A stretch of 61,219 bases of DNA from Verrucomicrobiia bacterium (GTDB lineage: Bacteria; Verrucomicrobiota; Verrucomicrobiia; Limisphaerales; DSYF01). Shown here piece after piece: positions 54,293 to 57,259 of this stretch. A model generated the notes under the pieces. It was not told the origin of the DNA and searched no databases. It saw only the letters and a list, made by a program, of their open reading frames with translations. The position numbers were made by a program, and so were the translations under genes. The stretch covers positions 1 to 61,219 of the forward strand of contig DASTWL010000082.1 of the NCBI GenBank assembly GCA_035765895.1, in the 5' to 3' direction. How positions within the stretch are numbered: the stretch's first letter is position 1; every line of letters starts with the position of its first letter.

Positions 54293-54589
54293 AGGTGGTT
54301 GAATATGCTACTTAACAAGTAACATTGCGCAGCCTAACAGTTCGCGCGCAACCCGGCAAGCCAGCCGCACGGTCACCCAACAAGTTTCGCAACGGCTAAT
54401 CTTTTACATTACCGCACAATTGACGCGGTCGAGTTCCCAGCCAATGCGCGATCGCCCGAATCAGAGGGTGCCCCGCTGCGCTGCTAGGGCGAATCATTTT
54501 CAGCCGCCCTCCGGCTGCGTAACCGGCTGTTCGCATTGGCGAGCCGGCCACAAATCGGTAAGCTGCCACCTGCAACCGCGTTCATCATG
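54293..54589. other. Divergent intergenic region before bioA
   Basis: About 300 bp between the cupredoxin gene and bioA. A possible -35 (ttgacg at about 54420) lacks a convincing -10. An imperfect palindrome (ctacttaacaagtaac) lies near 54308. No BirA-like operator or gene was recognised. Confidence 0.4.
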
Positions 54590-56068
54590 ATGTCAGAACC
54601 GCAGCCCCTGCCCCACCTGTCCACCGCCGTCGACGCGGCGGATGTGCGGCATTCGTGGCATCCGTTCACGCAGATGCGCGAGTATCTGGACCACCCGCGC
54701 CTCCACATCGCCCGCGCCAAGAGTTGCTGGCTGTTCGATACGGACGGCAATCGCTACTTCGACGGCACCGCCTCGCTCTGGACGAACGTTCACGGCCACG
54801 GCGATCCCGACCTCGACGCGGCGCTCCGTGCGCAGTTGGATCAAGTCGCGCACACGACGCTGCTCGGCATCAATCATCCGCAGGCCGCCGCGTTGGCAGA
54901 GGAACTCGCCACGCTTACGAACGGCAAACTCAGCCGCTGCTTCTTCAGCGACAACGGCTCCAACGCCGTCGAGATCGCGCTCAAACTTTCCTTTCAATAC
55001 TGGCAGCTCACCGGCAAACCCGAGAAGCGCGGCGTCATCGGCCTGACGGGCGGCTATCACGGCGACACCTTCGGCACGATGGCTGTCGGCGACAGCGGCG
55101 GTTTTCACGAACGTTTTGCTCCGTGGTTATTTCCGGCAAAGCACATTCCGGCGCCGATTCATGTGGAATGCGCGGGCAAAGTCGTTCGCTCCGACGCCTC
55201 GCAATCTCTCGCCGCCCTAGATGCCTTGCTCGCCGCCGAAGCCGACCGCACCGCGTGCCTCATCCTGGAGCCGCGCGTGCAAGGCGCCGCCGGCATGGTG
55301 CAACAACCGCCCGGCTTCGTCGCCGCCGTCGCCGAGCGCTGCCGGCGTGCGGGTGTGCATCTGATCCTCGACGAAGTCTTCACCGGCTTCGGTCGCCTGG
55401 GCGCGCTGACTGCGTGTAGTGGGACAGGCGTCCCGCCTGTCCAGTTTGACTCACACCCTTCGGAGGCTGCACGAAAAGCGAACGCCTCGCCGGACAGGCA
55501 GGATGCCTGTCCCACTACCCCCGATTTCCTTTGCCTCGCGAAAGGTCTGAGCGCCGGTTACGTCCCGCTCGCCGCCACGCTCACCCGCGACACCATCCAC
55601 GACGCATTCCTCGGTTCGTTCAGCCAGCAACGCGCCTTTTATCACGGCCACACGTTTTCCGGGAATCCGCTTGCCTGTGCCGTCGCCCGCGCCAGCCTGG
55701 CCAAGCTGCGTCCGCTGCTCGCCTCGGGTCGCGTAGCCGAAACCATCGCCACCCTCGGCGCAGAATTGGAATCCCATTTCGCCGGCCACCCGAACGTCGC
55801 CGAAGTCCGCCAGCTTGGCCTGACGGGTGCCATTGACCTTGTGCCGCGCGACCGCAACCGCCGCTGGCCCGCCGATTTGCGCGCTGGCTTCCAGGTGACG
55901 CTCGCGGCCCGGAAGCATGGGCTCGTCATCCGGCCGCTCGCCGACAGTGTGTTAATCGTGCCGCCAGTTGTTGCCACGCCGGACGAGGTGCGGCATCTTG
56001 CCCGCGCGTTGCACGCCGCGCTGGATGATGTTTTGCCCAGTCTCGAATCCGCCGCCGTTCCGCGCTGA
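54590..56068 (+). CDS. bioA: Adenosylmethionine-8-amino-7-oxononanoate aminotransferase, with in-frame palindromic insertion
   Basis: PLP enzyme of biotin synthesis that aminates KAPA to DAPA using S-adenosylmethionine. Seen: VRHSWHPFTQMREYLDHP, FFSDNGSNAVEIALKLSF, GGYHGDTFGTMAVGDSGGF, DEVFTGFGRLGALTA and the lysine in CLAKGLSAGYVPLAATL. Length is 492, about 30-60 more than usual. The surplus is at ~276-310, between TGFGR and the PLP lysine, where a perfect nested palindrome (55416-55518) is translated as GTGVPPVQF...RQDACPT. No stop codon interrupts it. ATG 54590 or 54587 gives the family start. Confidence 0.93.
   Translation: MSEPQPLPHLSTAVDAADVRHSWHPFTQMREYLDHPRLHIARAKSCWLFDTDGNRYFDGTASLWTNVHGHGDPDLDAALRAQLDQVAHTTLLGINHPQAAALAEELATLTNGKLSRCFFSDNGSNAVEIALKLSFQYWQLTGKPEKRGVIGLTGGYHGDTFGTMAVGDSGGFHERFAPWLFPAKHIPAPIHVECAGKVVRSDASQSLAALDALLAAEADRTACLILEPRVQGAAGMVQQPPGFVAAVAERCRRAGVHLILDEVFTGFGRLGALTACSGTGVPPVQFDSHPSEAARKANASPDRQDACPTTPDFLCLAKGLSAGYVPLAATLTRDTIHDAFLGSFSQQRAFYHGHTFSGNPLACAVARASLAKLRPLLASGRVAETIATLGAELESHFAGHPNVAEVRQLGLTGAIDLVPRDRNRRWPADLRAGFQVTLAARKHGLVIRPLADSVLIVPPVVATPDEVRHLARALHAALDDVLPSLESAAVPR
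55416..55518. repeat. Palindromic element inside bioA
   Basis: Outer arms gtagtgggacaggc (55416-55429) and its exact inverse gcctgtcccactac (55505-55518), with further inner inverted segments (11 of 13). The ~103-bp element lies in the coding region and keeps the frame open. Its translation GTGVPPVQ and RQDACPTT is unlike any BioA sequence. Confidence 0.85.
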
Positions 56069-56072
56069 ACCA

Positions 56073-56198
56073 AACCACGGATGAACACCGATGAACACGG
56101 ATACAAACGGAGCGCGGACTTCAGTCCGCTTCACCTCCGCCATGTCCTGAATGTTCGCCTGTTGAAGCGGACTAAAGTCCGCGCTCCCATCCGTGGTT
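56073..56198. repeat. Nested inverted repeat between bioA and bioB (ccacggatgaacacc type)
   Basis: Outer arms aaccacgg and ccgtggtt flank inner arms gagcgcggacttcagtccgc and its near inverse gcggactaaagtccgcgctc. It fills the 150-bp gap between bioA and bioB and would form a large stem in the mRNA. Confidence 0.8.
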
Positions 56199-56215
56199 AA
56201 ATACTTTTGAATCTC

Positions 56216-57259
56216 ATGTCCGCCTACACCCTCGACCAAGTCCGCGAAATCTATTCGCTGCCGCTGACCACGCTCATCTTCCGCGCGCAGCAGGCGCATC
56301 ATCGGCACCAGGACCCTGCTGGCATCCAGCTTTGCACGCTCAAGTCCATCAAGACCGGCGCGTGCCCCGAGGATTGCGCGTATTGCCCGCAGTCTGCGCA
56401 TTACAACACCGGCCTCGAAGCCGAGCAGTTGATGGAGACCGACACCATCCTGACCGACGCGCAAAAGGCCAAAGCCGGCGGCGCGACGCGCTTCTGCATG
56501 GGCGCCGCGTGGAGCCGCGTCCGCGACGGGCAACAATTCGACAGCGTGTTGAAGACCGTCTCGGGTGTCAAGGACCTCGGCCTCGAAGTCTGCTGCACGC
56601 TCGGCATGTTGACCGAACCGCAGGCGCAAAAGCTCAAAGCCGCCGGCTGCGACGTTTACAATCACAACCTCGACAGCTCGCGCGAATTCTACTCCAAGAT
56701 CATCACCACGCGCACCTACGACGAACGTCTCGAGACCCTCGCGAACGTCCGCAAGGCCGGCCTCGAAGTCTGCTCCGGCGGCATCCTTGGCATGGGCGAA
56801 TCCGTGGACGATCGCCTCAAGATGCTCGTCGAACTCGCGAGCATGGACCCGCAGCCCGACTCCGTGCCCATCAACGCGCTCATCGCCGTCGAAGGCACAC
56901 CGTTGCAGAACCAGAAGTTCGTGGACGCGTTTGAATTCGTCCGCACCATCGCCACCGCGCGCATCCTGATGCCAAAGGCGATGGTCCGCCTCTCCGCCGG
57001 CCGCACCGGGATGAGCGATGAGATGCAGGCGCTCTGCTACCTCGCCGGCGCGAACTCGATTTTCCTCGGCGACAAACTCCTCACCACGCCGAACCCCGAC
57101 AAGAACGACGACTTCGCGTTGCTCGAACGCCTCGGCCTGCACGACCTGCATCCCGACGACGCCCGCAAAATCCATCGCGGCGAGGTGGAGTTGGAATCGG
57201 TGGAAGACACCGAAGCCGCCAGTGACACCTGGGGCCGTGCGTGCCGGGAGCAGCACTGA
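56216..57259 (+). CDS. bioB: Biotin synthase
   Basis: Radical-SAM enzyme that inserts sulfur into dethiobiotin (347 residues). The [4Fe-4S] motif is CPEDCAYCPQSAHYNTG, with the [2Fe-2S] cysteines in CMGAAW and CCTLGMLT regions and conserved GGILGMGES and VPINALIAVEGTPL. The ending is VRLSAGRTGMSDEMQALCYL and the LTTPNP segment. The start is ATG 56216, nine bases after a TTG that could be read as an alternative. Confidence 0.97.
   Translation: MSAYTLDQVREIYSLPLTTLIFRAQQAHHRHQDPAGIQLCTLKSIKTGACPEDCAYCPQSAHYNTGLEAEQLMETDTILTDAQKAKAGGATRFCMGAAWSRVRDGQQFDSVLKTVSGVKDLGLEVCCTLGMLTEPQAQKLKAAGCDVYNHNLDSSREFYSKIITTRTYDERLETLANVRKAGLEVCSGGILGMGESVDDRLKMLVELASMDPQPDSVPINALIAVEGTPLQNQKFVDAFEFVRTIATARILMPKAMVRLSAGRTGMSDEMQALCYLAGANSIFLGDKLLTTPNPDKNDDFALLERLGLHDLHPDDARKIHRGEVELESVEDTEAASDTWGRACREQH

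Follow-up and report, generated by a model that had tools for sequence, protein, structure and literature searches.

The window, by which we mean the whole stretch of DNA analysed here (61,219 nucleotides from a Verrucomicrobiia bacterium), carries on its plus strand a bioA gene (54587–56068; ATG at 54587, stop codon at 56066–56068) for an adenosylmethionine--8-amino-7-oxononanoate transaminase of 493 residues. The product scored 455 bits against the NCBIfam profile TIGR00508 (cut-off 405), was also matched by PF00202 of Pfam, and retains all the invariant columns of a 41-row BioA alignment; these include D262 and K319, which we take from knowledge of the family to be the PLP aspartate and the PLP lysine, respectively. 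The bioA gene is essential under some conditions only. Directly downstream lies an ORF (56207–57259) that we named bioB by eye from its sequence.

A preliminary description had placed a 103-bp palindromic element in frame within bioA at 55416–55518, and its arms, its hairpins and the open reading frame confirmed this. The element has the form of a REPIN, a GTAG-tagged REP and its inverse arranged head to head. The left REP (55416–55442, plus strand) is an exact match to the family pattern and consists of GTAG, TG and a 9-bp hairpin with a 3-nt loop; a spacer of 49 nt (55443–55491), open in the bioA frame, separates it from the right REP (55492–55518), which has the inverse orientation, matches exactly on the minus strand and ends in CTAC. 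The outer arms are inverse, as had been described, but the 14 bp given for them was an understatement, as they extend over 27 nt with 25/27 positions paired (93% complementary). Within the left arm 55422–55430 pairs with 55434–55442, and within the right arm 55492–55500 pairs with 55504–55512, in both cases 9/9 across a 3-nt loop, and the order from outside to inside at either end is GTAG (55416–55419, its inverse at 55515–55518), TG and hairpin. Such a stem and loop fall within the short-hairpin range of GTAG REPs (stem of ~6–13 bp). Folded as single-stranded DNA the element reached −33 kcal/mol, compared to −18.1 ± 2.8 kcal/mol for shuffled sequences (z −5.4, with 0/200 shuffles equal to it).

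The bioA ORF stays open across the entire 103 bp, and the codons carrying the element (55415–55519, plus strand) encode the peptide C-SGTGVPPVQFDSHPSEAARKANASPDRQDACPT-T, BioA residues 277–311. Two of the three frames of a REP end are readable, as VVGQAS.. or as SGTG.., while the third runs into the TAG of GTAG. The element ends (flanks ..ACTGCGT and CCCCGAT..) showed no direct repeat, i.e., no target-site duplication, and an Rfam search gave no family match for the element. A second REPIN-like inverted repeat is found between bioA and bioB (56109–56187), with 25-nt arms that are 96% complementary and 29 nt apart and with the core GCGGACTNNAGTCCGC present twice; its sequence is unrelated to that of the bioA element.

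Copies of the element in the genome and the order

The genome to which the window belongs (G000, 4.64 Mb, a draft assembly of 96 contigs) has 13 occurrences of the hairpin core GGACAGGCNNNNNGCCTGTCC and none of its reversed control. We examined 18 distinct elements drawn from 43 loci (places with 3 mismatches not included), 11 being doublets, among which the spacer length differs, and 7 being single units. Seven of the 11 doublets stand in frame within ORFs of families recognised by Pfam or NCBIfam, encoding a protein kinase, a 4-alpha-glucanotransferase (MalQ), an isoleucyl-tRNA synthetase (IleRS), a CysJ-like flavoprotein, MutS, an alpha-2-macroglobulin and BioA; the palindrome, which the preliminary description had proposed to seek in other genes, is therefore in frame in six recognised genes besides bioA. 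No recognised gene was assigned to the other 4/11 doublets or to the single units; the doublet at L002 does lie within an ORF, though one with no family. Against solved structures, the IleRS copy is a 33-residue insert flanked by residues 415 and 417 of the solved chain, and in MutS 35 residues compare with 6; the insert of the CysJ-like protein lies within the stretch between its flavodoxin and FAD domains, and no solved relative of MalQ was found at the threshold used. A target loss of common length does not describe these copies, as the residues gained by IleRS roughly equal in number those encoded by the element, while BioA lost ~19 bp and MutS is ambiguous. The frame of entry is VVGQ, AVGQ or VVGK in six of the seven host genes and SGTG in bioA. 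If frame were irrelevant, the chance of finding 7/7 copies in frame would be about (1/3)^7 = 0.0005, a figure that takes no account of the restriction of the scan to spanning ORFs.

Across 146 genomes of the order, themselves a draw from a larger order, the stricter pattern GTAGTGGGACAGGCNTCNNGCCTGTCC was present in five genomes of five families (42 places in G005, nine in G000, eight in G087, seven in G093 and two in G084), with controls at 0. The pair closing the hairpin loop covaries among 41 distinct hairpins, being A-T in 18, G-C in 14, T-A in 8 and G-T in one (Watson-Crick in 40/41), and since the pairing holds although the search left these positions free, the hairpin is maintained as a structure. 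GTAGTG was present in 32 of the 41, a count to be read with the fact that many of the loci were retrieved with a pattern fixing GTAGTG. In-frame copies were also seen in genes of the other genomes, namely those for LysRS (L204), a xanthine-dehydrogenase-like protein (L201) and a class I tRNA synthetase (L229).

Empty site and structure model of BioA

The nearest relatives of the window BioA come from Opitutales-like genomes (about 60–70% identity, with segment identities of up to 72%). The alignment of 41 rows, including the window protein, was made from 55 sequences of which 14 were left out. In it, the segment from GFGR to PDF is 13 residues long in 40/40 relatives and 41 residues long in the window BioA, and the element-encoded peptide is missing from all 40 relatives, which agrees with the earlier statement that this peptide is foreign to the family; no segment without palindromic DNA was found to be shared at this position. 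A motif reading of L110–L200 likewise gave 13 residues at 68/91 loci, the motif being unreadable at the other 23. The empty site of the element is seen here at the protein level. A profile comparison with B. subtilis BioA breaks at residues 279–310, where the chain has five native residues, so that 33 foreign residues stand in place of ~5 native ones; a segment was indeed inserted, as had been proposed, but by replacement rather than by simple addition. The 103 bp of the element cannot be divided evenly into codons; with a net gain of 84 bp, ~19 bp of the target is gone. This loss presumably accompanied the insertion itself; it may also predate it, given that there is no near-identical empty site and the nearest relatives are only ~60–70% identical.

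The insert is located between Asp262 and Lys319, and the modelling of the loop proposed in the preliminary description gave a result in line with tolerance of the insert. AlphaFold2 returned a mean pLDDT of 87.4 for the window BioA, with values below 50 only at residues 1–10 and 280–306, and in a Foldseek comparison the model matched 3du4, the B. subtilis BioA, at a TM score of 0.93 by target length. The BioA fold is thus predicted to be intact with a disordered insert, and the low model confidence together with the position of the insert suggests that it lies on the surface.

While the window BioA is of the Opitutales type, the same-family genomes G002 and G003 carry another subtype, and a close bioA is absent from the same-genus genome G001; gene exchange or differential loss may account for this pattern. 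In the other subtype, as found in the order of the window (L079–L109), a variable loop directly after TGFGR, a few residues upstream of the element site, is 18–51 residues long in 29/31 loci (two were unread), and some of these loops resemble translated repeats.

It could be argued that bioA is decaying, having been killed by the insertion, with its frame open by chance, and the loss of five native residues would fit this. We regard it as quite unlikely, because the ORF is full-length, the product scores well over the curated TIGR00508 cut-off and keeps the invariant columns, the fold outside the insert is predicted with confidence, bioB follows directly downstream, and the ileS and mutS copies are likewise in frame. 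The insert peptide is presumably translated and retained in an enzyme that is probably functional.

Removal or skipping of the element before the mature BioA is formed, as an RNA intron, as a hairpin bypassed by the ribosome or by protein splicing, strikes us as about equally unlikely. A hairpin of this strength could in principle be bypassed, and inserts in housekeeping enzymes recall inteins; however, a piece that is excised or bypassed requires neither a kept frame nor freedom from stops, yet 7/7 copies in recognised genes have an open reading in frame (again with the proviso that scanning spanning ORFs favours this outcome), no intein or protein-splicing family is among the Pfam and NCBIfam hits listed for BioA, and Rfam gave no match.

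RAYT genes within host reading frames

REPINs are tied to RAYT transposases, and we sought genes of this kind that adjoin the REP. The genome of the window contains five Y1_Tnp genes, none with the REP hairpin in its locus (up to 1.5 kb per side), so that the mover may be absent, lost or hidden in a gap. One of these loci holds a lone GGACAGGC, and two strong ones (L044 and L045) were rejected as the cognate RAYT, being flanked by other short repeats. In three related genomes (G093, G005 and G084) a RAYT-like gene with the adjoining REP was found, and in all three it is in frame inside dnaE. The dnaE of G084 (L257) is complete and lies mid-contig, encoding 1561 residues with all domains in one frame: PHP, polymerase, finger, Y1_Tnp/REP_Tyr_transpos (1062–1163), HHH and OB. 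The RAYT in the dnaE of G093 lies between intact REPIN copies, one upstream (L223, at a contig end) and one downstream (L263), each sharing its left arm with the window copy; REPs of the family adjoin the RAYT downstream in G005 and on both sides in G084. The dnaE genes of G093 and G005 are interrupted by contig ends within the RAYT. A further dnaE-like gene of lower score is present in G084, and no PF07733 match was obtained for G005, so that only in G093 is the RAYT-bearing gene the only dnaE found. At the dnaE site following EDPRRLPTY, G093 has the RAYT and G084 (L257) another in-frame repeat-like peptide (PLAPTLSPGERE...), and these different inserts make the loop seem a hot spot.

These REPs bear on whether the bioA element might be a MITE, or might resemble an RPE and belong to some other transposase, and not be a REPIN. 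Its terminal inverted repeats would fit a MITE, and its size and in-frame habit match those of the rickettsial RPEs in the accessible text of Di Nocera, De Gregorio and Rocco (2013, PMC3733652), according to which such RPEs (Ogata et al., cited there) are in-frame palindromes in proteins that are probably functional. The preliminary description had drawn this same likeness, which stands for the palindrome inserted in frame in a protein gene; the tag tells otherwise, being GTAG as in RAYT-associated REPs, whereas the intragenic RPE-4 and RPE-6 of R. conorii are given in that text as CGTC repeats without a known transposase, and CGTC is not present as the tag of the bioA element. The lack of a target-site duplication, the GTAG tag followed by an unpaired TG, the short hairpin with its covarying loop pair, the head-to-head doublets and the RAYT genes in relatives flanked by the very REP of the bioA element all argue against an element of this other kind, to which we assign little probability.

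Using the dnaE-type RAYT as query against the 146 genomes, we obtained matches in 67 of them at E-values of 1e-12 or better. The 45 loci that we studied were 38 matches in open frames of at least 550 residues plus seven earlier regions, and thus represent best matches, not a random sample. Their hosts were AlaRS (14), DinG/YoaA (7), DnaE (3), PriA (3), fucokinase/nucleotidyltransferase-like (3), HsdR-type (3), IIG-methylase-like (2), ClpB (1), ThrRS-like (1) and tRNA_SAD (1) proteins, with two hosts without assignment (L304 and L305, counted among the 41 embedded rows) and five C-terminal or stand-alone cases; at L307–L310 and L314 the open frame has the RAYT at its C-terminal end, and these loci were excluded from the embedded count. 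Profiles placed host domains on either side of the RAYT in one frame for DnaE (L257), DinG (L259 and L260), PriA (L299 and L300), ClpB (L311), L312, L315, L331 and 11 AlaRS, while the remaining host assignments are based on one flank or on flank similarity. No splicing domain was among the Pfam and NCBIfam hits for the scanned hosts.

The AlaRS inserts (14 genomes; L258, L317–L323 and L325–L330) occupy two sites, near residues 303–308 and 420–545 in the numbering of the AlaRS of the window's genome, and in two genomes both sites are filled. A check of 12 genomes with TIGR00344 found the AlaRS parts in one open frame (1114–1540 residues) in 11, for none of which a second AlaRS gene was listed; one of these 11 genomes, G099, consists of a single contig. 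In the twelfth, G005, the N-terminal part is in a different frame from the RAYT-bearing part. The AlaRS of the window's genome (L332) was rejected as a RAYT host, its second site (~420–545) holding another insert of ~125 residues; it also has a low-complexity insert beyond that one.

The RAYT rows were selected by the HUH motif, and a Tyr-x-NP region was present in 64/64 (63 by pattern and one by eye); L315 and L307, where the motif was unmatched, are not in the tree. Pfam Y1_Tnp scored 25–41 bits in 7/7 hosts scanned, above its cut-off of 23, and NF047646 (REP_Tyr_transpos) 58–68 bits in five scanned hosts, under its cut-off of 80, which indicates that the embedded RAYTs are divergent. The 41 embedded copies come from 28 genomes of 24 families and fall mostly into two clades of the 64-row tree: one of 19 rows (support 100/100) found nearly always in AlaRS/ThrRS, and one of 25 rows (support 98/99) in DnaE, DinG, PriA and others, with three stand-alone members. 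The tree requires five switches between embedded and alone; over 2000 shuffles this number averaged 19 and never fell below 12. A sister REP, GTAGGACAGGC, accompanies the DinG RAYTs.

Origin of the bioA element and its wider setting

Based on these results, we consider it very probable that the bioA segment is a REPIN, a non-autonomous element with single-stranded DNA mobility of the RAYT type (TnpA-REP), that was inserted into a BioA loop with the frame kept, and that its REP comes from the RAYT lineage embedded in dnaE. That a BioA loop of naturally variable length has merely expanded, for which the 18–51-residue loops slightly upstream in the other subtype of the order could be cited, can practically be set aside, as the subtype of the window BioA has 13 residues in 40/40 relatives and the insert DNA is a multi-copy palindrome.

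Under the REPIN reading, the element would have been moved as single-stranded DNA by a RAYT transposase, presumably one resembling the dnaE clade, and would have entered the loop between the strand of the PLP aspartate and that of the PLP lysine, 103 bp coming in and ~19 bp being replaced, for a net gain of 84 bp that retains the frame. A net length change divisible by three, with the TAG frame avoided, would yield a stop-free linker that is read through. Copies breaking needed genes would be removed by selection, leaving survivors in loops, linkers and domain borders. The REP of bioA would belong to the RAYT lineage that lives in frame in the dnaE of related genomes, and that this lineage has the same REP ends suggests that readable ends belong to its way of life.

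In several respects the bioA element resembles systems already described. The occurrence of GTAG REPs and their dimers within ORFs was reported in 2013 (PMC3733652), so the kind of element seen in bioA has been known since then; the accessible text of that paper describes in-frame insertion into proteins unrelated to each other, among them tRNA synthetases and repair proteins, and names the verrucomicrobium Opitutus terrae as having the most intragenic GTAG repeats. The likeness to its 24 families concerns the described features, namely GTAG tag, short hairpin, head-to-head dimer and in-frame position, and the present case comes from a different lineage with different host genes (bioA, ileS and mutS). 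The REPINs of Pseudomonas fluorescens are given in the available part of Bertels and Rainey (2011, PMC3116915) as inverted REP doublets tied to RAYTs, and like them the bioA element is a doublet with a spacer that can form one long hairpin in single-stranded DNA; those were studied in extragenic space, whereas here 7/11 doublets are in frame in recognised genes. RAYTs, as stated in the accessible text of PMC8266576, work on single-stranded GTAG hairpins.

The embedded RAYTs are the part for which we found no description in the main texts of the openly accessible literature. Inteins with homing endonucleases are a familiar case of a mobile nuclease that is read within an essential gene, in frame and at recurrent sites, and the embedded RAYTs of the relatives are like them in all three respects; unlike inteins, they lack a splicing-domain hit in their scanned hosts and show no sign of removal. 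We therefore speculate, at roughly even confidence, that at least two RAYT lineages of the order inhabit the interiors of other genes, with a whole transposase and translatable REP hairpins in frame in DnaE, AlaRS, ThrRS, PriA, DinG, ClpB and others, and that they are retained because anything but a clean in-frame deletion breaks an essential gene; the bioA REPIN would then be a non-autonomous offshoot with ends shaped for ribosomal read-through, and the whole an intein-like niche without splicing. In PMC3733652, as far as its text is accessible, RAYTs are flanked by REPs or TIRs and RAYTs within host ORFs are unmentioned, and the available text of a survey (PMC6006769) has unexpectedly long Y1-transposase proteins discarded as fusions or annotation errors, some of which may be real.

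The bioA case provides a clean empty-site example, together with a structure model, for REP insertions that keep the frame; more important is the finding that the associated transposase, too, lives in frame in core genes, in two clades and 24 families. If confirmed, this would be a mobile element expressed from and protected by its host gene with no need for splicing, and it would furnish enzymes, AlaRS and DnaE among them, with new loops and domains.
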